DNA of 64,000 bases from Gossypium raimondii (Eukaryota; Streptophyta; Magnoliopsida; Malvales; Malvaceae). Both the position numbers and the translations under genes were made by a program. The stretch covers positions 39,411,192 through 39,475,191 of the forward strand of contig NC_068566.1 in assembly GCF_025698545.1 (NCBI RefSeq). Direction: 5' to 3'. Below are positions 4,541 through 52,180 of the stretch, piece by piece. The notes beneath the pieces were generated by a model. That model did not search any database. It was not told the origin of the DNA and was given only the letters and a program-made list of their open reading frames with translations. How positions within the stretch are numbered: position 1 is the stretch's first letter; every line of letters begins with the position of its first letter.

Positions 4541-7084
4541 TATAATGTCGGGAATGAAATCAAATAAACAAGAGATATAACAAAGACATAAATTATGTCC
4601 CTTAGCAAAATTGTACTATTTACATCTCAATCTATGAAACAAAAATGACATCCAACAAATCTTCTTCGAGATAGATGCACAATTTTATATTAATTGTTTA
4701 CTTCTATAATAATAAATTCATCTAAGTAATTAAAACAGGAATTTAGAAAATAAAACATTAGGTAGAAAGCCAGATAAATTTTGGCAGTAACCATGACAAA
4801 GAACAAGAAACCTACCTAGAACCAGCGATTGGTAATTCTCCTCGACCTGACACGAACAGCAAAGCCACCGACGCATCCTCATTCTTTTCTTCAAAAACTT
4901 AAAAAGAGTAACTCTCTCTAACAACTCCTAGGCCTAGGCCTGGGCCAATTTGTTCACCTTAAAAGCACTAAATTACCCAATCCATTTTGAGTAACAAATT
5001 CAATCAATGATTTCTCTAAACAGCTAATTAAAACATGTCACTGGGATTAACAAGGAAAAATAAAATCCATTTCCCACTACATCTTTATTGAAAAAGAAAT
5101 GTCTTTTAGTGTAAGATCTTGCGGTACACAGTATACCATACAAAGCATGTGATTTGGCCAACATGTAAGCAACAAGAAACGAAAAATTTGGGTAATTTTG
5201 ATTGAAATCACAAACTTTAGACAGTAATCAAAATACCATGATCAAATATATCTTTATAATTGAAAGAAACCTAACCTCAAAAGCAAGAATTTTTAAGATT
5301 ACTCGTTAAAGATTTGTTGTACCAAATACAAAAAAAGAAGTACTTGATAACAAAGAAAGCACAAAGTTTGGGAGATGAAAGAAAAAAGAAGTATGATTTC
5401 AAAAATTGTCAACAGCAACAAAACAAACAATCACAGGTGAAGGGATTCACACAAATAATCTTGGGTGCATAAAACCAACTTAAAACCCAGAGTAAGAAAA
5501 TGGCAGAGCATTGAAAGAACAACATATTGAATCAAGAAAAAGAGAGGAACCTGTAGTTAATTTCCCAGCCATATTGGGAACTTATTGAAGATTGAATCAG
5601 AAAGAAAGCAATGGAATGGCCAAAATCCCCAAGTTTTCAGCAGATTAAAAGGGAAAAAAAATTAAGTACAAAATTTGGGGTATTTAAGGCGCGCGATGGA
5701 GATGAGGAGAAGAGGGAGTAACTAGCGGGTAACCAAAAATTTGGATTTTGAATATCTTTTTTCTTTAATAAAAACGCCGCAAAAAATTATTTTATTTTTG
5801 TAAAAATCTTATATTTTTTCTGTTAAAAATTATTTTAAAGTAAAATTATTTTTTGTAGCGTTTTTTATAAAAATGCCGCTATTGCTTACCTTTTGCGGTA
5901 TTTTTCATAAAAACGCCGCAAAAAATTATTTCATTTTAAATCTGTTAATATTTATTAGTTAAGTGATTTTATAAAATATTTATTATTATTTTTTATAAAT
6001 TGAATTTTTTTATTAGTTTTATATGGATAAAATTTTTATATGGATAAGCCTGTATAACAAAGTCGGCCCAAAATTTTTATATGGACATGCCCGTATAACA
6101 AAGTCGGCCCAAAATCGTAGAACTTACGGTGTAATGAATGCAGTACCCTATATATGCGCTTTTGAAATTTAAAAGGAAATCTCTACATTTTAATTTTGAG
6201 ATATTAAATTTTTTATTTTTTTAATTTAAACATCTAATTTTACGGTTAAAATTATCAATGTAGCAATTAGAAAATGATAAAATAATTTTGTAGTCTTTAA
6301 TGTTTGTAATTTTATTAATTTTTATTTTGTTTTTATAAATTGATTTTTTTATGCTTTTTATGAAAACGCCACTAAATGTTTTTCTATATAAAATGGCTAT
6401 TTTTAAAGAAAAATTATTTCTTGTATGCTTTTTATAAAAACGCTAAATATTTTGCTATATGAAATGGCACTATTTTTTAAAGTAAAATTATTTTACTATC
6501 AAATAATCTCTCACATATCAAATTTCTATTAAAGATTGAGACGTTAATTATGATTTTATATTGTTCATTTCGATCTAATCTCCATTTTATTAGAGATATT
6601 TCTTGCTAACTAAAATATAATTATTTTGCTAGATGTTCGATGTGGAATGATTTTAGTTTTGTATTTTATTTTTATTTGTTATAATTTGGTCCTATATATC
6701 TAAAATAGATAGTTACCTATCCGTATCACTTTGTTACATTTTTTTATTTATTAATTTTTTAAATCTAATATTTAAATATATCAAATGGTTTAAATTAAAT
6801 ACTTTTTAGTCATAAACACGCTAATGTTACCTTTTCCGGCGTTTACAGAAGAAACGCCACTAATAAATTAAATTATTGTAATGAAACGACACCGTTTTGA
6901 AAAATTCTAAATCATATTAGCGGCATTTTGGCTATAAACGCCGCCAAAGCTTGCATATTTTACAATTTTTTATATTCAATTATTGTATATTGCATATTAG
7001 TTTTAAACTAATAATCTTTACAATTTATTATTTCTCTTTTACAATTATATAAGAACTTATTTAATATACAAATTAAAAAATACT
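4541..7084. other. CACTA interior, AT-rich, with scattered CGCCGC motifs
   Basis: 4541-5760 is moderately complex and may include upstream parts of the captured gene; no exon could be assigned. 5760-7084 is very AT-rich with isolated copies of the subterminal motif (AAAAACGCCGCAAAA near 5770, 5860-5920, 6365 and 6840-6950), which suggests the element grew by internal repetition or by insertion of a relative. Confidence 0.5.
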
Positions 7085-33029: not shown

Positions 33030-34092
33030 TGTTGAAACCATTTTTATTTTGGAAAAAAAAATTAGTTGTCGACTTTAAAAAAGCAAAAATTGGGAGTCGC
33101 CACCAATCTTTTATTGAGGTGTGATTGGATCACCTAAAAAATAGTTTTGGTCTACGAGTTTTAGAAAAACGGATTCGGGAGTCAGTTACGTACGAGGAAG
33201 AATTAGCACCCTCGTAACGCCCAAAAATTGGTACCAAATTGATTAATTAATGTCTTAAAGTCGAGAGTTTTAAAAATGCGATCCTTAATTAAATTAAATT
33301 ATTTATTAAGACTTTATCATTTTGAAAAAAGAAAAATATCACACCCAATGCGTTAGGGCACGACATTTTATTCTCTTCAAAATGAGTTAGTCCAAAAAAA
33401 TCATGTAATAAAATTTAAGAAAATATCTAATTGTTTAAAATTTATGAAGAAATCGCAGTCCAATACGTTAGGGCACAATTTCCTAAAATCCCAAACATTC
33501 AATATTTCCTTTATTTTTTTAAAAAATCTTTGTCTCGAGAAATCAACGTGTCACATCCAATACGTTAGGACACAACCTATTGAATTCCCGATGATAAGTT
33601 TTATTTTGTTTGATTAAAGAGCAATCCTGGATTGTTAGATTTTACGAAGAAAATCAGAACCCAATACGTTAGGGCTCAATTTTCTTGAAAATCCTAAATA
33701 CGAGTATTATCTCTATTTTGAAAAACTCTATTTTTAAATTCGAGTAAAAAGATGACGTGGTGTTATAATATATATATGCCACAATAATAAATACAACAAT
33801 AATAATCAATGGCATAGAAATAATGTATATAAATAAATAAATGAAGTTAATACACATAAAAATGACATGTAAAGTATTAAATAAACGAGCAAAATAATAT
33901 AAATGAAAACATAAATTAATAAACAAATGAAGGAACTAAATAAAAGAATAAAGAATAAAAGGTACATAATATATACATTAAATTATAAAGAATAAAAGAC
34001 GTAAACATAACTTACACATATAATTTTGAGTTATAAAATTTATATATATATAAAATACATAATGCATTTATGAAAAAAAATATAAATATATA
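33030..34092 (-). mobile_element. Old solo LTR, left part (Tat-like family)
   Basis: Begins TGTTGAAACC after the target duplication GTAGT (33,025-33,029). It is related to, but clearly diverged from, the LTR that starts at 34,093 (shared words GGGAGTCGCCACCAATC and AGCACCCTCGTAACGCCC). It is cut at 34,092 by the nested element and resumes at 50,707. Confidence 0.85.
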
Positions 34093-36458
34093 TGTTGACA
34101 CCATTTTTTTTTTGCTAAAACGGGGTCGACTTGGATTTTGAAAAAAAAAAAAACGAACATGGGAGTCGCCACCAATCCTTTTTTGATGAGGTGTGATCGG
34201 TTCACCTCGAAAAGTGGTTGTTTTTAATAAATGATTTGATTTTATTAAAACAACGAATTTGGTTTACGAAATTCAGAAAAATGGGTTCGGGAGTCGATTA
34301 CGTACGAGAAAGGATTAGCACCCTCGTAACGCCCAAAATTGGTATCTAGTTGATTACTTAATGTCTTGGTGTCGAAAATTAAAAAACTCGAAAAGAATTT
34401 AAAAATACGATCCCTCATTATATTGTGTTATTTTAAAATTACTCGAATAAATCAAAATGGAAAATGCCTCCTTATCTCGAAGTAACAAGATGTCACATCC
34501 AGTAAGTTAGGACACAACACCTCGTATTTTGAGAGTAAGCTTGCATTTCACTTTTTATTTAAACCTCATTCGTTTTAATTTTAAAAGGATATTCGATTAT
34601 TTAGGATCAACGCGAAAAAAATCGAAGCCTAGTAAGTTAGGGCACGATTTCTCAAATTTTCTAAATACGGAATATTGCCTTTATTTTTAAAATTTTATGT
34701 GTTTGGAAATTTAAAAGGATATTTTGCTATTTAGGTTTAACGAGAAAATCGGGACCTAGTAAGTTAGGGTACAATTTCTCGAATTTCCAAAATGTAAAAT
34801 ATTGCCTTATTTGAAATTTGTTTCGAATTTGGGTAAAAGAATAGCGAAATGTAAAAAACAAATACACATTTAATTCATTAGTCTTTAGAGAAATCGTTTA
34901 ATACGTAAATGAAATTATACGTGGCTAGATACAATAGTACGACATACATTTGAAATAGCCATGACATAATGTATATAATAAAATGTAACATGCATAACAT
35001 TGTCACTCATGAATCACAAGGTTAACAAACACAAACAATAATAAGGATAATGTTAACGATAACACAAGTAATAATAATAACTATATGAGTGACATGCCCA
35101 ACAACAACAATAATAATAAACTACAATAAAGATGATATCAAGGAATCTAACGTTAAAAAAATTGAAGATTAGCAAGTAATTAGATAATGAAATGATAGTA
35201 ATAACAATGACATATATAAAATACACAAACTAATACATATAAAATAACAATAAATAAAATAAATAATGGTGTAAGTTTGATTAAAAATTAAAAAATAAGT
35301 AACTACAAAACATTAATTGAATTATTTAATAAAACTGTTTTTTTTAAATATATATATAAATAGAAGTAATAAAAAACAATAAATAGGCAAGATAAAAAAA
35401 GGAAATAATAAAACAAGTAGGGACCGAATTGAAGTCAGGCAAAAAATCAGAGTTTAAATTGTAAATAAATGAAATAGGTTGCTAGGGGATTGAAATAAAT
35501 TGCGCTGAGGACATGGGGGACCGATTATGCAATATCCCCGTCCCTTATGCGCATTGCTTTGCGCAAGACCAGATTGGAACAGGCGCAAAATTATGTGTCA
35601 AAAATAGAAAATAATAAAAAGGTCAGATTGCACCTCAGCGCCAGATGGAGCGACCGAATGCGCAAATTACCTATTAGAGCAAAGAGGCGCAGGTCACCCC
35701 CTTCAAACGGCGCCGTTTTGCTTAGTGCATTTAAGCAAAATTTCCATTCTAGCCTCTGTCCTCTTTTTTTCTTTTCTTAGTTTCAAAGCCTTTCCCCCTT
35801 TTCTTTCAAGCACCCGACCCTTGGGTTTCTTAGCCCCTGGAGCGCCACCGCCACAACCATAAAGACCGGTGGCCGACGATGAAGGAGAGACCCCCCGGCG
35901 GCATGGTCACGACCAACTCCGGTGAGTTTCTCTTCCCCTTATTTTTGCTTTTGATTTTTTTATTATAGTTATTTAAAATAGATTTGCAAAAGAAGGAAAT
36001 AAAAATAAAAATAAAATAAGATAAGATAACAAATAAATAAATAAATAAATAAGGGAAAATGAAGAGGAAATAACAAGGATTCCACCTTTTTAAAATTTCT
36101 ATTCGGCTTTTGATTTCTAATGTGGGTAAAAAAATACTAAGATTAGATCCAGGTTTTTATAGACTTATACAACTATTAATAAATTTTTTATCTGCCTATA
36201 TTTGCCATTACTGTTGGCATGCTCCTGTTATTGCATTTAATTTGCAGAAGTTTCAAGGCCAACGGTGGTGGCAGAGGCATGCGTGAGGAGGCTGGCGGCT
36301 AGGGGTGTCAGACGCGTGGAAAGGCTAGTGGCTGGGGGTGGACTTAGGTGCAGCAGTAGCAACAGCAGCTAGGGTTTCCTATTGCAATTTTTTAATTTTG
36401 TTGGGCTTTAGGTGTAGGTTTTTATTTTTTACTAGGCCAGCAAATTTGGGCTTCTACA
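34093..36458 (-). repeat. 3' LTR (left) of the Tat-like element
   Basis: 2366 bp, TG...CA. It differs from the right copy mainly by small indels, including about 50 extra bp near 36,320-36,370. It contains three spaced copies of a GTTAGG(G/A)(C/T)ACAA motif and an antisense exon-intron-exon structure. Confidence 0.93.
35879..36372 (+). other. Two-exon ORF antisense within the LTR
   Basis: On the strand opposite to gag-pol, ATG at 35,879 opens an exon to 35,921 followed by a good donor (G|GTGAGT). A 326-base intron ends TTTGCAG at 36,247. Exon 2 continues in frame to a TAG at 36,370-36,372, giving 55 residues (MKERPPGGMVTTNSE, then VSRPTVVAEACVRRLAARG). Upstream are the palindrome AAACGGCGCCGTTTTG (35,705-35,720), a pyrimidine-rich leader and a GC-rich stretch, as in a plant gene promoter. 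The other LTR keeps donor, acceptor and frame. The product resembles nothing I know; it may be a non-coding or captured 5' gene end rather than a protein. Confidence 0.45.
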
Positions 36459-36475
36459 GCTGCCCCTCTTTGTTC
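36459..36475 (-). other. Polypurine tract of the Tat-like element
   Basis: The minus strand reads AAAGAGGGGCAGC immediately before the left LTR. Confidence 0.75.
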
Positions 36476-36589
36476 GTTTTCGTGTAACGAGAATAGAGCA
36501 AAGACTAAGAAGGACCAAATTTGCCTAGCCTTGCTGAGGCTTGACTTCTTTGGGTGCTTCTCTTCAAGTAGCTTCATTCCAATCTACTG

Positions 36590-37400
36590 TGTCTTGTTGC
36601 TTTGATCCATTTTATAGCATCTTTAGAGAGATATGACTTCAATCTACTCTGCTGCGACTCCATGGGGATGAGATTTGGTTTTAATCCGCTCCACTGCAAA
36701 TTCAGGGAGATAGTATTATTTTTTTCCATCTGCTCCACTACTGCTTAGGGAGATAAGACTTGATGCGATTTGCTCCACTACTGCTTAGGGAGATAAGATC
36801 TGTAGTTTTAATCCGTTCCACTGCAACTTCAGGGAGATAGGATTAGTTTCCTTTGTCTGCTCCACTACTTCTTAGGGAGATAAGACTTGATGCAATCTAC
36901 TCCACTACTGCTTAGGGAGATAAGACATGTGGTTTTAATCCACTCCACTGCAACTTCAGGAAGATAGGATTGGTTTCTCTCGTCTGCTCCACTACTGCTT
37001 CTGCTTAGGGAGATAAGACATGTGGTTTTAATCCACTCCACTGCAACTTCAGGGAGATAGGATTGGTTTCTCTCGTCTGCTCCACTACTGCCTAGGGAGA
37101 TAAGACTTGTTGCGATCTGCTCCACTACTGCTTACGGAGATAAGACCCGTGGTTTTAATCTGCTCCACTACAACTTCAGGGAGATAGGATTGGTTTCCTT
37201 TGTCTGCTCCACTACTGCTTAGGGAGATCAGACTTGAGGCGATCTGCTCCACTACTGCTTAGGGAGATAAGACATGTAGTTCTGTCTGCTCTACTACTTC
37301 AGGGAAGTAAGATTCGCCGTTGTAACTTTAATCTGCTCCACTGCATCGCCATGGAAGTAAGATTCGCCGTTGCGGCTTCAATCTTTTAAATTGCAACCTT
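36590..37400 (-). repeat. Minisatellite in the 3' region of the Tat-like element
   Basis: About fifteen units of 40-50 bp, alternating two types: 'ctgctccactactgcttagg' with 'gagataagac', and 'actgcaacttcagggagata' with 'ggattggttt'. A minus-strand frame of 86 codons here is repeat translation. Tandem arrays between integrase and 3' LTR are usual in the Tat lineage. Confidence 0.88.
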
Positions 37401-38738: not shown

Positions 38739-39605
38739 TCAAAGAGAGGGAATTTCAACCTCAATTGGTAGCATCGCCTCCATTCCGTAAACCAAAGAGA
38801 ATGGTGTTACCTCGGTAGAAGTCCTGACAGACGTTCGATAAGCATAGAGGGCGAATAGTAACTTCTCGTGCCAATCTGTATAGGTCTCAGTCATTTTCCC
38901 CACAATCTTCTTGATATTCTTATTGGCCGCCTCCACCACACCATTCATTTTTGGACGATATGGTGATGAGTTGTGGTGCTTGATCTTGAATTGACTACAG
39001 ACTTCTGCTATCGTGCTATTGTTCAAGTTCAATGCGTTGTCAGATATAATCCTTTCAGGCATTCCATATCGACATATGATTTCCTTCTTTAGAAACTTGC
39101 TGACGATTGCCTTTGTGACATTGGTGTAAGAAGTAGCTTCTACCCACTTAGTAAAGTAGTCAATCACTACAAAAATGAAACGATGTCTGTTTGAAACCTT
39201 TGGCGATATCGGTCCAATAACGTCCATGCCCCACATGGAGAAAGGCCATGGAGAAGTCATGACGTGAAGAGGTGAGGGAGGCACATGAATTTTGTCTCCG
39301 TAAATCTGGCATTTATGGCACTTCTTAGCATATTTGATGCAGTCTCCTTCCATGGTAGACCAATAATATCTGAATCTCATAATTTGTCTGGCCATTGTGA
39401 AACTGTTAGCATGTGTTCCACAAACACCATCATGGACTTCTTCCAAGATTTGCTTGGCCTCCACAGCGTCCACACATCTTAACATCACCTGAACCTTTCC
39501 TTTTTTGTACAGGATATCTCCATCTAAGACGTAGTCACTAGCAAGTCTCCTCAACATTCTCTTGTCATTCTTAGTTGCTTGGTTTGGGTATTCGCGATTT
39601 TTCAC
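38739..39605 (-). pseudogene. Integrase (Tat-like)
   Basis: 288 codons open. The zinc-binding region shows HDGVCGTHANSF and CIKYAKKCHKCQIYGD. The catalytic core has WGMDVIGPIS (first Asp), ERIISDNALNL (second Asp) and NGVVEAANKN (Glu), so the DDE triad is complete. SPYRPKMNGVVEAA replaces the more usual HPQTDGQAE of chromoviruses, as expected for Tat. The C-terminal end reads FSLVYGMEAMLPIEVEIPS. This is the best-preserved domain of the element. Confidence 0.9.
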
Positions 39606-39608
39606 GTA

Positions 39609-40424
39609 TCACAATATGTTCTGATACCAAGGGTTATCGTCTTTTTCCTCTTCCTCGTCAACGTTACAACAGTGGGCTAGAGCATCATAAATGCTCATTT
39701 GGATAGGCTTCACATCCTCCTGTTTATTTACTTTGATCATGGAAGCCAATGTAGCCAAAGCGTCGGCCATCTGATTCTCGTCTCGTGGGAGATAACAAAA
39801 AGTGATGTCGTCAAACTCCTCAATCAATTCTAAGACTAGCTTTCGATAACTAATCAACTTGGGGTCTCTTGTTTCCCATTCGCCTTTGAGCTGATAAATT
39901 ACCAATGCCGAATCCCCATATACCTCAAGCACCTTGATTTTGCGTTCCATAACCGCACGGATTCCCATGATACATGCTTCATATTCTGCCATGATATTTG
40001 TGTAATCAAAATCTAGTTTACTAGTGAACAGATAATGATCACCGTCTGGAGATACCAAGACTGCCCCAATCCCATTGCCCACAGCATTTGAGGTTCCGTC
40101 AAAGTTTAATTTCCAAGCATTGCTTTCTTGTGTGTTTACTTCAACAGTTGCCACATACATTAGATCCTCATTTGGGAAATAGAAGTTTAAAGGCACATAA
40201 TCATCCAGGGCTCTACTAGCTAGAAAATCTGTTATCGCATTCCCTTTTACAGCCTTTTGATTCACATAGGTTATGTCAAATTCAGATAGTAGAATTTGCC
40301 ATCGGGCCATCCTTCCATTTAGAGCGGTTGACTCCATCATGTATTTCAGAGGGTCTAACTTTGAGATTAACCAAGTCGTATGGTACAATATGTATTGTCT
40401 CAATCTCCGAGTAATCCAAACCAA
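39609..40424 (-). pseudogene. RNase H region with second (archaeal-type) RNase H (Tat-like)
   Basis: The first part reads HTTWLISKLDPLKYMME and GRMARWQILLSEFDI, the end of the ordinary retroviral RNase H. Then comes an independent RNase H domain: WKLNFDGTSNAVGNGIGAVL, MAEYEACIMG, VYGDSALVIYQLKGEW and PRDENQMADALATLA. Its acidic residues (Asp, Glu, Asp, Asp) are all in place. A second RNase H between RT/RNase H and integrase is a marker of the Tat branch. Confidence 0.88.
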
Positions 40425-40772
40425 TGCGCAACATAAATTTTCAATTGGTGAATATCTCGTTTCGCATTCAGTGAACTTCTTGCTGAGATAGTAGATCGCT
40501 CCTTCTTTTCATCCTGACTCATTATGTTGGCTGAGCACGCACCCCATGGAATTCTCAAATACTGTCAAGTATAGTATCAGTGGCTTGTCAGGGCAAGGTG
40601 GCATCAATACTGGGGCGTTGGACAAGTAATGTTTAACTTTTTCGAAAGTTTTCTGGCACTCCTCATCCCATACACCTGGATTGTATTTCCTAAGAAGACG
40701 GAAGATGTGGTCACATTTCTCAGTTAACTGTGAAATGAATCGAGTGATGTAATTTAGTCTTCCTAGAAAACC

Positions 40773-41819
40773 TCAAACTTCCTTTTGAGTACTCGGTGGA
40801 GGTAATTCTTGTATGGTTTTAACTTTGTCTGGGTCAATTTCAATTCTCTTTTCGCTGACTAAGAATTCTAGCAACTTTCCTGATCTAGCCCCGAAAGTAC
40901 ACTTGGCTGGGTTAAGTTTTAGCTGGAACTTCCTTAACCTTAGAAACAGTTTTCTCAGAACTTGCACGTGTTCCCCTTCTGTTCTGGACTTTACGATCAT
41001 GTCATCGACATAGACTTCTATCTCTTTATGCATTATATCATGGAATAATGTTACCATGGCTCTCTGATACATTGCTCCCGCATTTTTTAATCTAAAAGGC
41101 ATCACTTTGTAGCAAAACGTCCCTCACATCGTTACAAATGTGGTCTTCTCCATGTCTTCAGAATGCATCTTAATTTGGTTGTACCCGGAGAAACCATCCA
41201 TGAAAGAGAACAGTGAGTATCCGGCCGTGTTGTCCACTAAGGTATCAATATGGGGCAATGGGAAATTGTCTTTGCGACTGGCCTTGTTCAAATCCCGGTA
41301 GTCCACACGCATTCGCACATTCCCATCTTTCTTAGGAACAGGGACTATATTGGCTGCCCATTCTGAATACTTGACCACCTGTAAGAAACCAGCATCAAAC
41401 TGCTTCTTAACTTCTTCTTTTATTTTTAGCAAGACATCAGGCATCATCCTTCGGAGCTTTTGTTGAACTGGTTTACATTCTTCCTTTATAGGCAGTCGGT
41501 GTACCACGATATCAGTACTTAACCCGAGCATATCTTGATAGGACCATGCGAAGACATCTTTAAACTCTTGAAGCAACTCAACGAGGTTTTGCCTTGTTTT
41601 CTCGGTAATGCCAGCGCCAATCTTTACCTTCCTTCTTTCTTCTAAGCTCACGACTTTCACTGATTCCTTATAGGGTAGGATTTGTTTTTCTTCTTCCTTC
41701 ATCATTCTTAACAAATCCGGAGATAAAATGTTGTCTTGGTCATCTTCAAAATCCTGAGGATCATCCATACTCATGTCTTGTTCAAATAGGGACCCTGAGT
41801 TAGTAACATCGTCGTTCAT
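40773..41819 (-). pseudogene. Reverse transcriptase (Tat-like), interrupted by a stop
   Basis: The 5' half (41,819-41,124) has EWAANIVPVPKKDGNVRM, RVDYRDLNKASRKDNFPLP and FMDGFSGYNQIKM, ending at a stop where the lineage has Trp (TFVTM-stop-GTFCY). The 3' half (41,105-40,773) has MPFRLKNAGAMYQ (normally MPFGLKNAG) and the active site EVYVDDMIVKS. The two halves share a frame, so the main lesion is a nonsense change near 41,122. Further RT thumb sequence goes on below 40,773 with an additional stop. Confidence 0.9.
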
Positions 41820-42611
41820 CTCGTTGATACCTGAAGACTTGTTATTGGGACAAAGGGAGGCCCAAATAAAAAGAATCTAAGAATACTTGTATGCATATTA
41901 TTATAAATGGAATTAAAAGAATGAAAGAATATTTGCTCAAGGTGAGACTGAATGATTAAGTTTTTATTGAAATGAGATTTTGGACATGTACCTTTTACAA
42001 AAGATTCTTATTACCCCCAGGCTTAGGGCAACAAGTGTTCTGAATATTACTCTGAATTAGTTTTAAATTTTACAGGGATCTCTTCTACAGTCCAGTTGTT
42101 CAGAACACTTCCAGGTTCGTAAGGGCGAATACCCGATAAATTTCTTTCCATCCTTTCCTCTTCAGATATGGCATTGATGTCCAACCTTCTGGTCCTTCCT
42201 TTAGTAATTTCATTCTTTCCTTCGGGGTAGACAATTCCCCCTGAAACAAATGTCTTAGATATATGGGGAAAGGTCATTGGTTCCCATTTGGTTTCCATCC
42301 CGCTCAAACGTGCTCTTCTTTTCTCTCGCTTTTTTTTCAATTCCTTCTTCCTTTCTCTTGTGTCAGGCTTATACCCCAAACCAAAACGGTCCTGTTTGTT
42401 AACCAAGATCGGTACTTCGACCCATCCCTGGAGGTATTTTCCAAGTCCTCTTCCAGGCAACGCTCCCTTTTATCATAGGTAGCTGCAAACTCATTGTCGT
42501 AGCTTTGGATATTTTAGGCGCTGGAATTTTGCTCCCCTCGATGACAAATGTTATGTTTATGAATTCCAATGATCGAAATGAACATTCTATTGTTTCACTA
42601 TCAGCCTTTAT

Positions 42612-43484
42612 TTATGGCGTGTCATTGGTAACTGATGCAATGATGTCTTCTTCTACACCTATAGTTACTAATCGGCCCTCTATTACCAATTTCAACTTTT
42701 GGTGAAGTGACGACGGTGCAGCCCCTGCAGAATGGATCCAAGGCCTCCCCAATAGGCAATTGTAAGATGGTTTGATATCCATTACCAAAAAATCCACCTC
42801 GTATGTATTTGGACCAATCGAGAGAGGTATCTCGATTTTTCCCATCACTTTCCTCTCAGTACCAACAAATGCTCTCACTATATTTTGGTATGATTTCATG
42901 TGAAAACTGTCCACAGGCAGCCTGTTTAACGTGGACAGGGGTAAAACATTCAGTGCCGATCCATTGTTAATGAGTACCCCTGGTAGTATGTACCCCTTGC
43001 AACGGGTAGTGATGCGCAGGGCTTTGGTAGATCCCATACCACCTAGCAGGATCTCATCATCGTTGAATAAGATGAAGTTTTTGGTATTTATATTGTTAAC
43101 CAGGCGATCCAACTTGTTCACTGAGATATCATTAGCAACATAAGTCTCATTTAGCACTTTTATCAACGCATTACGATGTGTCTCTGAACTTAGAAGTAGC
43201 TCGAGCACTGAGATGTGAGCCGGTTGCTTATGCAGTTATTCTACCACGCTGTACTCGCTATGCTTTAGGAATTTTAAAAATTCTCTAGCCTCATTCTCAG
43301 TCACTGGTTTGTTAACATGCGATTCAATTCTGGCCATCTCTGCTTCAATTGCTAAGGCTTTTCCTTTTATGGACCCCACTTTTGCATTTGTTGGATCGTA
43401 GCATTTTCCACTATGAGTATAGAAGCCTACATCACTACCTTCTTCTGAAGCGTTTACCGGGTTCTCCTCTCCCGGGATTGTCAC
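42612..43484 (-). pseudogene. Aspartic protease region (Tat-like), active-site Asp replaced
   Basis: Reads FNDDEILLGGMGSTKALRI, then CKGYILPGVLINNGSALNVL. The catalytic motif of this lineage is DNGSALN; here the first residue is Asn. Further on, SYNCLLGRPWIHSAGAAP is the usual end of the fold. The segment 43,484-43,236 lies upstream in another frame, so the gag-protease junction is broken. Confidence 0.85.
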
Positions 43485-43499
43485 ATTGCATTCATAATT

Positions 43500-45343
43500 C
43501 TAATGAACCCTTTTACTATCCTTGTAAGGAAAGGATGCCGGTTTTTGGATTACGACCCTTGGCGCCATTTGTATTTCAGATCCTGTACTCATTGGCCTCG
43601 AAATAATCACCACTGGGTAATTTTGGGCCTTTCCCGTAGGTCCTTCCTCCGAGGCATAGACTTCTCCTTCTTCTAGTCCTTTGATCTCTTCATAAAATTC
43701 CACCTCTTTGTTGTTCATCAGATTTTGTACCATGATTCTGAACTCGGCGTATTTTTGGATGTCATGGCCCTTTTCGGCATGAAACTCGCAGTACGTCCTC
43801 GTTCCTTCGGGTCTTTCCTTTGAATCTTGTTTGATGAGACATTCCTCTATCATTTGTTTCCAAACCCACTTCAGTGGGGTATTTACCTCCGTAATGTCAT
43901 CTTTGATTCTCCTTCCCCCATCCTCAATTATTGCATTTATCCCTTTATCAGAAAGATTGGGTAACGGATTCCCTGCCACGTTTGGTACTGATGGGTTGTC
44001 ACTTTACGATCCCCATCTTAATGAATCTTTCCACAGCCTTCTTAAACGCAGTGCAGTTCTCAATCAAGTGCCCTGGTATCCCCTCATGGTATTCACATTG
44101 GGCATTCATGTCATACCATTTAGGGTATGGAGGTTGCATGGGCTCTAGATAATGTAGAGACACTATGTGCGCATCGAATAGCTTCTAATACAGTTCCTTG
44201 TACGTTATTGGAATTAAAGTCTCTCTGTGTTGGGCCTTGTGTTGGGCTCTTGCCTTGAGGGGCTCTGATGACTAGTGGCTGCCGTTCTTGGAGGGCCAAC
44301 AGTAATCGGTTTTGAATAACTCTTGCTATATTGCTTACATTGTTTACCTCACTTTTTTTTTCAGGGCTGGTCTTTTGGAGCTTCCCCCGCGTCTATTTTA
44401 CCGCTTCTTATTGCATTTTCGATTATTTCACTAGACATTACCATATCCGAAAAGCTCTTAGTAGCACTCCCCAATATGTGGTTGATGAATGGGGCTTTCA
44501 AAGTGTTGATAAACAGCATGGTGACCTCTTTTTCCAAAATGGGTAGCTGGACTTGCGTTGCCACTTCTCTCCATCTCTAGGTGTATTGTCTGAAGCTCTC
44601 ACTAGGCTTTTTTCCATATTCTGTAATGTAATTTGATCGGGTGTTATGTCCGTCACATGACTGTATTGCCTCATGAAAGCTCGCGCCAAGTCTCTCCATG
44701 AACTAACTTTAGTACGACTTAGCTGGTTGTACCATTTAGCTGCAGACCTGATCAAACTGTACTGAAAGCAGTGGATTAACAGTTGATTATTGTTGACGTA
44801 TCCTGTCATTCTTCGACAGAACATAGTTATATGAGCTTTAGGACAACTAGTCCCGTTGTACCTTGTGAACTCCGACATCTTGAACTTAGGTGGGAGCACT
44901 AAATCAGGAACCAAACTCAAATCTTTGGCGTCGACTCCATATTGGTAGTTGGTGTTTTCCATGGCTCTAAATTTTTCCTCTAGCCATCTACACCGTTCTT
45001 CTAGTTGTTTTGGCAGGTCTGTTTTTGCTTTCTCTATCTCCGCTATGTCATCGAGATCAAGTACCACAGGGTTGGTAGGGTTGTCCCCGGGGTTAGAACC
45101 TGAGCCTACTTGAAAATGCATTGGTACCGAAGCACCAGCCAGATATTGAAGTCTAAGGGTAACAGGTACCCTCTGTGGGTACACCTCTGGTTGTGCTTGG
45201 ATGTTAGTTGGGGTGAAACCTGGAGGATAAGCAGGGTCATCGTGATCCTCCCCAGCATCAACTACAGGGCTTTTTCCTTTATCGTTCCCTCCAGCCAATA
45301 ACTGTTTTAATTGGTTCATCATAGTGTTCTGGGATTCTTGCAT
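43500..45343 (-). pseudogene. Gag (Tat-like), in pieces
   Basis: The N-terminal part at 45,343-44,498 has DDPAYPPGFTPTN, then KFKMSEFTRYNGTSCPKAHI, MFCRRMTGYVNNNQLLIHCF and AAKWYNQLSRTKVSSWRDLA, a typical capsid region. The middle (44,580-44,360) lies in a shifted frame. The C-terminal part (43,979-43,500) has RTYCEFHAEKGHDIQKYAEF, a histidine/cysteine knuckle in which one Cys seems to have become Tyr. At least two frame shifts separate the pieces. Confidence 0.82.
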
Positions 45344-45769
45344 GTCTTGCTGGATTTTATCCAGTCGTTCCTACATCTGATCTTGCATCTCCTTTTGTAA
45401 TTGTTCCAATCTTTCTAACCTCTGATCCATTTCTTTCGTTTGGCGACGAGTACCGTAGTGATATTTGATTGGTGGATTTTTGTTGGTTTCTAGGGTAACT
45501 GTCATAATTTTAATTTATTAGGGTCCTTTTATGAAACTTAATGCATGTAATGTAATGTAATGTAATGTAGATGCATGAATGCAAAAAATGCATTTATTCC
45601 AATTCAATTTCATTAGAAGAACTCGATTTAGAAAACAAATTTCTTTACATAAAATAGACTACATATACGGCTTCACATTTATACTCAAAGCCTTAACACT
45701 CCTCAAGAGCCGAGCTAACTCTCGACCTCGGCTTGATTCTGATTCATAATTTAAACTCAATACATCAGC

Positions 45770-46237
45770 CTAAACTACTGGGGTTTGTAGATGATCCGCT
45801 ACTTCTCGTACTTGAGTCACGGCTTCGCCCATAATGTAATCTCTATCTCTAATATGACTTTGAGAATGATGGTATTGCTCTTGCCATTGCTCATTACTCC
45901 TCTCCAGAAGCTCCACTCGCAGCTCAGAATCTTGCAACGCATCTTCGAGCTCTCCTATCCTTCCCTTTAGTTCTTCAATCTTACTTAAACTTGTTCTCAA
46001 TTCGATTAGAGAGTTGCGACTACGATGTAGGTGAAGCGACTTTTCTAACTCTGTTACCCGAGCTTTTAACCTTGCTTCTTCATTCTGACATTCTAGCAAA
46101 CTTCTCTCCAAAGCGCTCTCTCGAGCTCGGGCGTCATGAAATTTCTTCTCCCACTGATCAGCATTGGTTATTTCTTCTTTGATCTCCTGCCGCCATTGTT
46201 CCGATGTTTTTCCCAGATCCGCAGTTCTTATCGACAA
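45770..46237 (-). pseudogene. Coiled-coil segment of the extra upstream ORF
   Basis: 155 codons rich in Glu, Arg, Leu and Gln with heptad spacing (ESALERSLLECQNEEARLKA, then RVTELEKSLHLHRS). It follows the ORF at 46,270-47,814 in reading order and is separated from it by a stop or frame change near 46,255. It is probably the C-terminal coiled coil of the same protein. Confidence 0.65.
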
Positions 46238-46269
46238 ACGTAACTTCTTATAATCCGTTTTTAGACTAT

Positions 46270-47814
46270 CTAAATCTTCTTCAGCTTGTTCTTCCCTTTT
46301 CTTAATTTTTCAGCTTCCAGCTTGTGAATATCGACATCTAATCCCAAACGCATCTTTTCCTCTTCTAATTGCTCAATTTTCTTACCCAGCTCGGAACTTC
46401 TCCTTTCAAAGTCTTGTTTAATGATCTCTAGTTCTGACGGAACCACTTGTAGATGCTCTTCTATCGGTCGAACATCTTCTTGGCTTGATGCGGGGATGTT
46501 ATCATTGATTCTTCTTCCCCACCACAAATTATACTCGGGAGTTGTCATTGGGTTTACAGCAAGTATCTTCATTCTGTGGGTTTGGTTCCAGGCATTTGAT
46601 ATTTCACGAACCTTCTTCTTGTAATTATCTTCTTTGAATGAAAATTCACACCGAGCCAACCCTTGTGTCGTCGGTATGAACTATCTAGATCTGTACGGGC
46701 TCAAGACTAACAAAGGGGCGTATCCAACGGCTCCCCAAATTTCGAGTAAAGGAACCCAATCGAACTCTCCACACTGATACAAAATTTCATTAGGGATCAT
46801 CTATGGGGCTCTCTACTCGACATCCTCCTTTTGAAGGTTTTGGAGAATCACCAACCATTTCTCCTCCGTGATATCGTTTCGTCTTGGTATAGCCACTAGT
46901 TCCTTTAATGGGGAGTAGTTTTCTGAGAAAACCCGATAGGAGACCTTCTCTACTTTTCAAAAGTGACTATGAAACCATACCAATAACAGTTGCGCGCATC
47001 TGACGAACCTTCCTTCACCCGCTCTTCGACACGCATTTAGAGATCTGAAGGTTTCAGTCAAAATTGTTGGGGCTGGTGTGACCCTCCTGTCAACCCTATC
47101 AAACAAATCTGAAACTGCTTCGTCCAAATGCCCTAACACCTTGGGGAAAATGACCAAACCATAAATACTCAAAGGGAAAATATCGACCCTTTTTCTCACA
47201 TCCGGATGTGCCAAGATCAGATCTCGCAAATTTTTCCAAGGCATGCACTTGTTGTCTCTCTTTTGCCTAATCCTGGCTGCAACCCATTGCTCACTCATCC
47301 CTGTAATACTCATTAATTTCTTCAAGAATGTCGGGACATATGCTGCTCTCGAATAGGCCCTATCGACTTGGATCCTCGGACATCGTAGCAAGGTCGTATA
47401 ATCTTCTATCATGGGTACCAAATCTACTTTCCCAAACGTGAAACAACTGTAGGCGGGATTTCAATACTGCACGAGGGCTCGAAACAAGTGTTTGTCTACC
47501 TTTACGTCGAGTAGATAAGGCAAATCACCATAGTTACTGTAGAAGAGCTGTCTGATCTCATCACCCCACTGATCATAAATTTCCTTCAATTCTTGTAGGT
47601 TGTTTTGAGTTACGCTGATTCGAGTGAAGTCCCATAGCTCTGACACGTATCCTTCCATGACGCTATCACCCTTTTCTTGCTGAACTTTTTCGGACCAAAC
47701 TCGGACGGCCGCATTATCTTCTACTTTACCAAGAAACTCCCTTTCCATGTTGAGCTCTCTATTTAAATACTGAACACGAATCAACACCTTTTTTATGATG
47801 AGAATGTCATACAA
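46270..47814 (-). pseudogene. Extra ORF upstream of gag (Ogre/Tat ORF1-like, plant transposon-associated domain)
   Basis: Three frame fragments read LRELYDQWGDE-like sequence (LQELKEIYDQWGDEIRQLFY at 47,600), then MVPMIEDYTTLLRCPRI, WKNLRDLILAHPDVRKRVD and YGLVIFPKVLGHLDEAV, then WNQTHRMKILAVNPMTTPEY. I recognise this as the domain found in the extra ORF of plant Tat/Ogre elements and listed as DUF7745 in some annotations (from memory). Function unknown. Several stops lie between 46,660 and 46,960. Confidence 0.72.
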
Positions 47815-48398: not shown

Positions 48399-50706
48399 TG
48401 TTGACACCATTTTTTTTGCTAAAACGGGGTCGACTTGGATTTTGAAAATAAAAAAAATGAACATGGGAGTCGCCACCAATCCTTTTTTGATAAGGTGTGA
48501 TTGGTTCACCTTGAAAAGTGGTTGTTTTTAATAAACGATTTGATTTTATTAAAACAACGAATTTGGTCTACGAAATTTAGAAGAACGGGTTCGGGAGTCG
48601 ATTACGTACAAGGAAGGATTAGCACCCTCGTACCGCCCAAAATTGGTACCTAGTTGATTACTTAATGTCTTGGTGTCGAAAATTAAAAAACTCGAAAAAA
48701 ATTTAAAAATACGATCCCTCTTTATATTGTGTTATTTTAAAATTACTCGAATAAATCAAATGGAAAATGCCTCCTTATCTCGAAGTAACAAGATGTCACA
48801 TCCAGTAAGTTAGGACACAACACCTCGTATTTTGAGAGTAAGATTGCCTTTCACTTTTTATTTAAACCTTATTCGTTTTAATTTTAAAAGGATATTCGAT
48901 TATTTAGGATCAACGTAAAAAAAATCGAAGCCCAGTAAGTTAGGGCACGATTTCTCAAATTTTCTAAATACGGAATATTGCCTTTATTTTTAAATTTTTA
49001 TGTGTTTGGAAATTTAAAAGGATATTTTGCTATTTAGGTTTAACGAGAAAATCGGGACCCAGTAAGTTAAGGTACAATTTCTCGAATTTCCAAAATGCAA
49101 AATATTGCCTTATTTGAAATTTGTTTCGAATTTGGGTAAAAGAATAGCGAAATGTAAAAAACAAATACACGTTTAATTCATTAGTCTTTAGAGAAATCGT
49201 TTAATACGTAAATGGAATTATACGTGGCTAAATACAATAGTACGACATACATTTGAAATAGCCATGACATAATGTACATAATAAAATGTAACATGCATAA
49301 CAGTGTCACTCATGAATCACAAGGTTAACAAACACAAACAATAATAAGAATAATGTTAACGATAACACAAGTAATAATAATAACTATATGAGTAACATGC
49401 CCAACAACAACAATAATAATAAACTACAATAAAGAAGATATAAAGGAATCCAACGTTAAAAAATTGAAGATTAGCAAGTAATTAGATAATGAAATGATAG
49501 TAATGACAATGACATATATAAAATACACAAACTAATACATATAAAATAACAATAAATAAAATAAATAATGATGTAAGTTTGATTAAAAATTAAAAAATAA
49601 TTAAATACAAAATATTAATTGAATTATTTAATAAAACTATTTTTTTAAATATATATATAAATAGAAGTAATAAAAAACAATAAATAGGCAAGATAAAAAA
49701 GGAAATAATAAAACAAGTCGGGGACCGAATTGAAGTCAGGCCAAAAATCGGAGTTTAAATTGTAAATAAATGAAATAGGTTGCTAGGGGACTGAAATAAA
49801 TTGCGCTGAGGACATGGGGGACCGATTATGCAATATCCCTGTCCCTTATGCGCATTGCTTTCCGCAAGACCAGATTGGAACAGGCGCAAAATTATGTGTC
49901 AAAAATAGAAAATAATAAAAAGGTCAGATTGCACCTCAGCGCCAGATGGAGGGATCGAATGCGCAAATTACCCATTAGGGCAAAGAGGTGCAGGTCACCC
50001 CCTTCAAACGGCGCCGTTTTGCTTAGTGCATTTAAGCAAAATTTCCATTCTAGCCTTTGTCCTCTTTTTTTCTTTTCTTAGTTTCAAAGCCTTTCCCCCT
50101 TTTCTTTCAAGCACCCGACCCTTGGGTTTCTTATCCCCTGAGCGCCACCGCCACAGCCATAAAGACCGGTGGCCGACGATGAAGGAGAGACCCCCCGGCG
50201 GCATGGTCACGGCCAACTCCGGTGAGTTTCTCTTCCCCTTATTTTTGCTTTTGATTTTTTTATTATAGTTATTTAAAATAGATTTGCAAAAGAAGGAAAA
50301 ATAAAATAAAAATAAAATAAGATAACAAATAAATAAATAAATAAGGAAAAACGAAGAGGAAATAACAAGGATTCCACCTTTTTAAAATTTCTATTCGGCT
50401 TTTGATTTCTGATGTGAGTAAAAAAATACCAAGATTAGATCCAGGTTTTTATAGACTTATACAACTATTAATAAATTTTTTATCTGCCTATATTTGTCAT
50501 TACTGTTGGCATGCTCCTGTTATTGCATTTAATTTGCAGAAGTTTCAAGGCCAACGGTGGTGGCAGAGGCATGCGTGAGGAGGCTGGCGGCTAGGGGTGT
50601 CAGACGCGTGGGAAAGCTAGGGTTTCCTGCTGCAATTTTTTAATTTGGTTGGGCTTTAGGTGTAGGTGTTTATTTTTTACTGGGCCAGCAAATTTGGGCT
50701 TCTACA
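48399..50706 (-). repeat. 5' LTR (right) of the Tat-like element
   Basis: 2308 bp, TGTTGACACC...CTTCTACA, closely matching the left LTR over its length with scattered substitutions and small indels. The close match suggests a fairly recent insertion despite the damaged coding region. Confidence 0.93.
50179..50643 (+). other. Two-exon ORF antisense within the right LTR
   Basis: Same structure as at 35,879: ATG at 50,179, donor after 50,221, acceptor before 50,540. Exon 2 is open to TAA at 50,641-50,643, so the frame survives although the ~50-bp deletion changes the C terminus. The palindrome AAACGGCGCCGTTTTG lies about 175 bases upstream. Confidence 0.42.
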
Positions 50707-50796
50707 ATATACATATATTCATTAATTATAAAATATGTGTTAAAAATATAAGTAGGTAGTTAAACATTTTGAAAATAAATAAAAATAAATAGATAC

Positions 50797-50836
<40 letters not shown>

Positions 50837-51007
50837 GAACATTCATTAGAAAAAAATAAATATGTATACATGTACACATAAAATATATAAAAATAATTAA
50901 ATAATATTTACATTATCAATTTTAATTATAAAAATATGTGTATATATATTATAAAATGAATGCGTGCATAAATATAGAAATGATAATAATAAATAATAAC
51001 AAGAATG

Positions 51008-51052
<45 letters not shown>

Positions 51053-52180
51053 TTAACAATAATATAATAAATAAATAATGGTATAACATAATTATGATAA
51101 TAACACTAAAAAATAATTAAATAATAAAATAGCTAAAAAAAAGACTAAATTGAACTTAAAAACGAAAAAATGGGGTAGATTCGCAATAAATTAAAAGACA
51201 GGACTAACTTGAATGCGCTAACAACAACGGAGGGCTAAAAGGGAAATTAATCCTGCCCTGCAAAATGCTGCGCAGTGACGGACCAAATTGAAACAAAAAT
51301 GAAATATGCGGCTAAATTTTAAAAAGAACAAAATGGGTTTGATTGTAGTGCGTCGCAAAAAGAAGTGGCTAATTGAGAAAATTTCCCCTTTATGCCAGAA
51401 CGCGCGGACCTGACCCCCCTCAAACGGCACCGTTTTGCTAACGTGATTTAAAACAGTTTTTCCTTAAAAAAAACATGCTTGCTGCAGTAAGAAGAAAAAA
51501 ATTAAAAAAATAAGAACTCTCTGCTAGGGTTTTTCAACCCCAGCTCTTAAATGTCGTCGTTCTCAGGCGAGCCGATCCCCAGCGCTCCGTCAAGCTCCGA
51601 TCTGAGCGAGGCGGACGGAGTTTCGACGGCGAATCCTCGAAGGTATTACCCCTCTCCTCTTTTATATTATTATTTTACAAAATAAGAAAAAATCGACAAG
51701 AATAGAAAAAAAAATAGAAAACGCGATTCACCTTTAAACTTTGATTCTTTTTCTCTCTTATTTTTAGTATCTGTCCCCTATTTGAACTCTCTGTGTTGCA
51801 AAAATAATAGCTTTCTTTTTTATTGATTTTCGGCTCTCGTATACAATACATCCATGGCTTTTTTATAGCCGAATCGAACCATGTAAAGAAGAAACTAATT
51901 TCTTTTTATTTGATTTGTGAATCTTTGATTTTGTTTCTTTTTTTTTTTGTGTGTTTATTTGCTGTGCAGGTGAAGATCCGGGGCTGTGGTGCTTGGAGGG
52001 CATGGTTGCGGCGGCTGAAGATTAGAAACCCTAGGGTTTCTGATGATTTTGGGCCATCGCAATTTGGGCCTTTGTTTTATTCTGGGTTTGGGTCATATAG
52101 GCCTGTTTGTAATTTGGATTTGGTTTTGTAAAAAAAAAAAGAATTGTTTATTAGGGGCCGGGTAAAATTTAGGTATTACA
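50707..52180 (-). mobile_element. Old solo LTR, right part
   Basis: Starts with the ATATA duplication of the nested element and ends TTAGGTATTACA at 52,180, followed by GTAGT (52,181-52,185), the same target duplication as at 33,025. Without the insert the LTR is about 2.53 kb. No internal element region follows on either side, so it is a solo LTR left by LTR-LTR recombination. It contains (AT)n at 50,799-50,833 and (AAT)n at 51,006-51,051. Confidence 0.88.
51551..51642 (+). other. Antisense exon-like ORF start in the old LTR
   Basis: ATG at 51,551 opens MSSFSGEPIPSAPSSSDLSE and further codons up to a GT donor at 51,643. A plausible acceptor (TGTGCAG) is at 51,969, after an intron of about 327 bases. 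The layout, including AAACGGCACCGTTTTG about 130 bases upstream, matches the antisense unit of the younger LTR although the exon sequence differs. Joining to that acceptor gives an early stop. Confidence 0.4.

Follow-up and report, generated by a model that had tools for sequence, protein, structure and literature searches.

A predicted spliced antisense unit facing the sense promoter in Tat/Ogre-type LTRs of cotton

In HTLV-I a spliced antisense transcript, HBZ, is described as arising from the 3' LTR (PMC1459196). For plant elements, antisense promoters are named in PMC7264820 for AtRE1, for the apple element Mdoryco1-1 and for Grande. The accounts in PMC7264820 and PMC11963269 also include aORF-3R, a long antisense ORF in the interval between pol and the 3' LTR which often carries a TRP28 domain, and about half of Retand elements are reported to have tandem repeats between pol and the 3' LTR (PMC11963269). 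A sequence-only reading of a cotton retrotransposon had proposed that each of its LTRs carries an antisense, spliced unit with its own promoter, and had held such a unit to be undescribed in the lineage. None is described among the literature matches listed; antisense promoters of other plant LTR elements and the spliced antisense gene of the HTLV-I 3' LTR are known. The main text of PMC11656987, a study of motifs in plant LTRs, contains neither of the words "antisense" and "palindrom". Among the papers matching shorter palindrome words, the 40 listed of 76 lie mostly far from plants.

The window, that is, the whole stretch of 64,000 nucleotides of Gossypium raimondii DNA analyzed here, contains a full element whose gag-pol strand is minus and whose TSD is ATATA. 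Its two LTRs are 94.4% identical (2367 aligned columns, 72 mismatches). The main parts of the element are as follows:

34093–36458, minus: 3' LTR, left copy (LTR alignment); the polypurine tract GAGGGGCAGC (minus) adjoins its right side
36678–37312, no strand assigned: tandem repeats between pol and the 3' LTR, in the path of a putative 3'-LTR antisense RNA
38739–47814, minus: coding region (domain profile matches)
48399–50706, minus: 5' LTR, right copy (LTR alignment)

The coding region is broken by stops. It shows integrase, RVT_3 (the second RNase H), RNase H, RT, a weak gag match (44,498–45,370) with a score under its cut-off, and, upstream of the latter, a DUF7745 ORF (46,957–47,460, minus). 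A double RNase H between RT and integrase is a mark of the Tat/Ogre group, and Ogre possesses an additional ORF upstream of gag. Since the RT–integrase interval of the window element, like that of L069 and L071, has RT_RNaseH followed by RVT_3, and since an ORF precedes gag, we place the window element by these criteria in the Tat/Ogre group of plant Ty3/gypsy elements. Grande and Retand are counted among the Tat group. The primer site of Ogre is tRNA-Arg; the minus strand adjoining the 5' LTR here reads GCTTGGCGACTCCACTGG. Tandem repeats between pol and the 3' LTR are also present in L070, where large arrays with periods of 86, 134 and 401 (L070:612–3688) adjoin the LTR. A possible hairpin at the polypurine tract was noticed by eye in 10 elements, in the form of an inverted repeat (CTCTTTGCTCG...GAGCAAAGA) with a few mismatches; it occupies 36459–36520 in the window and the starts of the stretches of L069–L071 and L086–L091 beside their LTRs.

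On the strand opposite to gag-pol, both LTRs were found to contain the palindrome, first exon, donor, intron, acceptor and second exon that had been proposed. Exon 1 ends at 35,921 and 50,221, immediately before GTGAGT, and TTTGCAG ends at 36,247 and 50,539, in agreement with the junctions given earlier. Three things are additional to that first description: a TATA-like box on the antisense strand, a TATA box on the opposite strand within the intron, and a third LTR that shares the layout. The features of the two LTRs are:

35705–35718, no strand assigned: palindrome AAACGGCGCCGTTT, left LTR (palindrome search)
35729–35734, plus: antisense TATA-like box (ATTTAA), left LTR (promoter word search)
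35758–35921, plus: predicted antisense exon 1, left LTR (start estimated as palindrome start + 53)
35922–36247, plus: predicted antisense intron GTGAGT...TTTGCAG, left LTR (splice signals)
36154–36162, minus: putative sense TATA box in the antisense intron, left LTR (footprint alignment)
36248–36458, plus: predicted antisense exon 2 to the left LTR end; would enter the element's 3' untranslated region
36371–36378, minus: GAAACCCT (minus), presumably a telo-box, conserved within the sense U3
50006–50019, no strand assigned: palindrome, right LTR (palindrome search)
50030–50035, plus: antisense TATA-like box, right LTR (promoter word search)
50059–50221, plus: predicted antisense exon 1, right LTR (start estimated as palindrome start + 53)
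50222–50539, plus: predicted antisense intron, right LTR (splice signals)
50446–50454, minus: putative sense TATA box in the antisense intron, right LTR (motif search)
50540–50706, plus: predicted antisense exon 2 to the right LTR end; would enter flanking DNA

Taken alone, the window copy gave p 0.040 for the donor and p 0.144 for the acceptor against local shuffles, and the initiator word YCATT is missing at its usual place in both window LTRs. It is the comparison of related LTRs that supports the proposal of an antisense, promoter-equipped and apparently spliced unit, and hence of two promoters per LTR.

One related LTR lies in the window itself. This solo LTR of a different family is split by the full element (~33,030–34,092 and 50,707–52,180, TSD GTAGT) and is older than the inserted element. 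It too shows the antisense layout on the plus strand:

51422–51435, no strand assigned: palindrome with one mismatch, third LTR (palindrome search; LTR end at 52,180)
51446–51451, plus: antisense TATA-like box, third LTR (promoter word search)
51643–51969, plus: predicted antisense intron GTATTA...GTGCAG, third LTR (splice signals)
51,859–51,868, minus: opposite-strand TATA box in this intron (motif search)

No antisense LTR unit was found beside a further one-mismatch palindrome of the window, at 6,884–6,897.

Throughout the 751-Mb genome (281 contigs) the 18-base palindrome CAAAACGRCGYCGTTTTG has 1335 sites and its reversed control none; the 14-base core with TATWWA within 5–12 bp gave 2196 matches, a few places being matched twice, and again none for the control. 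Because the palindrome is symmetric, splice pairs can be compared in both directions from it. This was done for 14 palindromes obtained by stepping through the site listing with no further criterion, all of them on contig C1. An opposite-strand TATA box was present at 383–597 bp, on one side only, in 12 of the 14, and in nine of these 12 the better splice pair lay on the TATA side (scores of 15.4–22.9 versus 6.8–14.8), the other three (L075, L083 and L085) having no directional splice pair. L074 and L079, in which no TATA box was recognized, had one-sided pairs scoring 20.0 and 23.7 versus 9.1 and 11.1. With these two, 11 of the 14 sampled palindromes have the better pair on the expected side; in ten of the 11 it outscores 57 or more of the 60 shuffles, while the pair in L082 was equalled by 16 of 60. 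In four of the 14 a polypurine tract of the kind typical of this element group lies at most 1 kb away.

Several LTRs (L045, L053, L072, L076, L085 and others) have a second palindrome at a distance of ~36 bp; in some, a third one lies ~180–215 bp upstream. The palindrome core also sits in Pto-F78, reported as a novel poplar microRNA (PMC3646847), which hints that the palindrome is older than cotton; Pto-F78 may be a small RNA derived from an LTR. The inner 12-mer of the palindrome is found inside a potato eIF4E coding sequence (PMC9326172).

For comparisons across families the palindrome and the opposite-strand TATA box were used as anchors; 58 of 74 oriented loci had both, and the remaining 16 were set aside. 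These 58 form 35 clusters at 80% identity, each represented below by one piece; the LTR pieces number 59, with the third LTR counted twice (L011 and L039). In 54 of the 59 pieces and 33 of the 35 representatives a TATA-like word from a loose word list starts at a distance of 21–25 bp from the palindrome start, in the interchangeable forms TATAAATA, TATTTAAG, TATATAAA and ATTTAAAA. YCATT is found 18–48 bp past this word in 23 of the 35 representatives (0.09 expected per window further on), with a spacing of 28–31 bp in 19 of the 23. The pyrimidine-rich leader of the sequence-only reading is not a general feature, many clusters having A-rich leaders. In several clusters the antisense (GGCTATTTAAGCC) and sense (GGCTATAAAAAGCC) TATA boxes are both framed as GGC-TATA-GCC, so that each core promoter looks like an inverted copy of its counterpart.

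A footprint alignment of the 35 clusters contains 14 conserved blocks. Seven of them are two palindromes, the antisense TATA box, the putative sense TATA box, the acceptor TTTGCAGGTGA, the presumed telo-box and a TTTTGGGC word. The intronic TATA at 36,154–36,162 is of the GGCTTTTTATAGCC type on the plus strand and reads GGCTATAAAAAGCC on the minus strand. Based upon its information content, the highest of the 14 blocks, and its position ~300 bp from the U3 end, we infer that this minus-strand TATA box inside the antisense intron is the sense core promoter. At the sense U3 end (36371–36458) the telo-box and TGGGC words, the latter presumably site II-like, are conserved across clusters. The donor is missing from the 14 blocks, which is explained by the variable length of exon 1.

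Splice sites were scored with approximate, rounded plant site frequencies rather than with a trained model, and the best donor and acceptor between the anchors in the 35 representatives were compared with those in local dinucleotide shuffles. The acceptor reached p<0.05 in 24 of the 35 (Fisher 1.8e-21) and the donor in six (Fisher 2.2e-5), as against one and none on the other strand (Fisher 0.95 and 0.999); since the clusters are related, the 35 are not independent and the Fisher values overstate independence. A good acceptor lies 69–128 bp past the opposite-strand TATA box in 29 representatives and is wanting in six. Among these 29 the exons have 50–55% GC as against 27% in the introns, where T makes up 40%. 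AG is rare before the acceptor (42 observed versus ~75 expected). At real 3' splice sites AG is likewise scarce just ahead. A donor score of at least 6 together with an acceptor score of at least 8 was obtained for only 20 of the 35 representatives and 36 of the 59 pieces; in these 36 pieces the mean intron is 302 bases.

Three groups comprising 44 of the 59 pieces were aligned, the groups having been formed after the donor contexts were seen. GT at the donor position is present in 16/16, 10/10 and 16/18 copies, and in the three groups no other GT is kept better, one being equal. The AG of the aligned acceptor is present in 14/16, 3/10 and 14/18 copies, ranking 1/22, 5/11 and 5/12 among AGs, with homologous acceptor columns that are uncertain because intron lengths vary. 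A search for intronless copies in two families gave no alignment that passes the junction by over 10 bases (37/37 and 40/92 candidates scored). The sequence-only reading had suggested testing whether donor, acceptor and reading frame are kept above background in related LTRs; the two splice signals do exceed it, and a kept frame is not supported. The anatomy of the unit, its conservation and its strand polarity are evident from these comparisons.

As to coding potential, the spliced frame is indeed open in both window LTRs (55 and 48 codons) as claimed, but it is borderline against shuffles (p 0.05 and 0.07). An ATG-led frame crosses the junction in 27 of 36 pieces, exon 1 is without an ATG in 5 of 36, and the frame has p of at most 0.1 against shuffles in 13 of 36 pieces and 5 of 20 representatives. 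This mild excess of open frames, in pieces that are related, tells against an entirely non-coding reading and leaves some room for coding. Peptide likeness tracks DNA relatedness, few matches bridge groups, and the exon 1 peptides are mostly unrelated. With small counts and no correction, pN is near pS in most pairs, lying below it in L034/L037 (0.31 vs 0.52) and L011/L056 (0.13 vs 0.40). In view of the pN values and the lack of a widely shared peptide, the idea that the spliced frame encodes a conserved protein was rejected as unsupported. When the spliced peptide of the window was searched against proteins, one match was obtained, a predicted gene model of G. barbadense (GOBAR_DD06228, 78 aa), which is without nine residues past the donor, a gap compatible with the same donor and an acceptor 27 nt further in; the 108-aa peptide of L081 gave no match. 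The predicted spliced antisense RNA is probably non-coding.

We put at roughly three in four the probability that the LTRs of this Tat/Ogre-type element, and those of dozens of diverged clusters in its genome, contain two convergent core promoters, the antisense one giving rise to a spliced, probably non-coding RNA through which the element may regulate itself. It might be argued that the conserved blocks serve the sense strand only, as parts of U3, R and U5, and that the antisense splice signals are coincidences passed on by common descent. All of these LTRs do share ancestry, some half of the 14 blocks are other than antisense signals, and the telo-box, the TGGGC words and the sense TATA box could well belong to a sense promoter. 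The donor, the acceptor and the base composition of the intron are, however, polar and fit the antisense strand. TATA variants replace each other at a fixed spacing from the palindrome, with the initiator word ~30 bp on, and the donor GT is unsurpassed in the three groups. Nor can a sense poly(A) signal explain the 8-letter TATA-like words, since none of those listed spells AATAAA on the sense strand. On balance we consider the sense-only explanation unlikely.

Instead, the element might carry an antisense gene comparable to aORF-3R of Grande and Retand, the LTR unit supplying its promoter and 5' leader. Tat relatives are reported to have such ORFs (PMC7264820, PMC11963269), and antisense frames of up to 255 codons stay open through the tandem arrays of L070. 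Among 10 stretches beside 3' LTRs (the window, L069–L071 and L086–L091), about half of which reach a recognizable pol, none has a shared antisense ORF of at least 85–90 codons outside repeats. Nine antisense ORFs scanned against Pfam yielded no match above the cut-off, the best (E 2.4e-4, sub-threshold) belonging to a repeat ORF. A Grande/Retand-like antisense protein with its leader in the LTR was therefore rejected as a candidate; lacking a shared ORF beside the 3' LTRs it is unsupported here, and we judge this alternative very improbable. Less credible still is the earlier suggestion that the 5' end of one host gene was captured and spread with the LTRs. The layout is common to many diverged clusters with mostly unrelated exon 1 peptides, and no host gene was recognized in 44 + 51 genome matches, not all inspected singly, however much the unit may resemble a plant gene start with an exon 1 richer in G+C than the intron.

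Under the preferred reading of two convergent promoters, the sense promoter with its GGCTATAAAAAGCC-type TATA box would start the element RNA. Some 380–620 bp on, a second promoter composed of the palindrome AAACGRCGYCGTTT, the TATA-like box and often a CA initiator ~30 bp further would start an antisense Pol II transcript which crosses the sense core promoter. The U-rich intron of ~300 bases, with the sense promoter inside it, would be spliced out. The mature RNA would then consist of exon 1, exon 2 and sequence past the LTR end, the last being the 3' tandem repeats in the case of a 3' LTR and flanking DNA in that of a 5' or solo LTR. Such an RNA would most likely act upon the element, through convergent transcription across the sense promoter and through a 5' leader able to pair with the sense RNA. 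Antisense transcription, splicing and the regulatory role are what we infer from the arrangement of signals. The wider proposition, that face-to-face LTR promoters are a property of the whole clade, retained while its families diverged, and that a backward, spliced, non-coding RNA whose intron removes the forward promoter regulates the element, is put forward tentatively, at slightly less than even odds.

Many LTRs of this group are present in plant genomes. Should each of them hold a spliced antisense promoter, antisense RNA would be a part of the life cycle of a major group of retrotransposons, as it is in HTLV-I, and not an accident of a single copy. Perhaps a thousand LTR copies of the genome studied would then send spliced transcripts into adjacent host DNA, and such promoters might account for a part of the small RNAs, of the read-out transcripts and of the short, spurious gene models found close to these LTRs. 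The 14-base palindrome offers a mark for finding copies and for testing the proposal in existing RNA data.

The unit as predicted would resemble HBZ of HTLV-I, as described, in having its antisense start and first exon in the LTR and in being spliced. HBZ encodes a protein, whereas no conserved frame was found in the cotton LTR unit; moreover, unlike that of HBZ, the predicted intron of the cotton unit lies within the LTR and brackets the putative sense core promoter. With AtRE1 and Mdoryco1-1 it has in common an antisense promoter, in our case a predicted one, in a plant LTR element (PMC7264820). These two are described singly, and a family-wide unit of palindrome, TATA box and intron forms no part of that account (PMC7264820). 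Grande with its gene23 and Retand with its aORFs come close in that the region near their 3' LTR has tandem repeats and is transcribed in antisense or has antisense ORFs (PMC7264820, PMC11963269). Their promoter, according to the same sources (PMC7264820, PMC11963269), is upstream of a coding antisense ORF in the interval between pol and the 3' LTR, whereas the cotton unit, with no shared ORF after it in the 10 stretches read, has its predicted promoter inside both LTRs.
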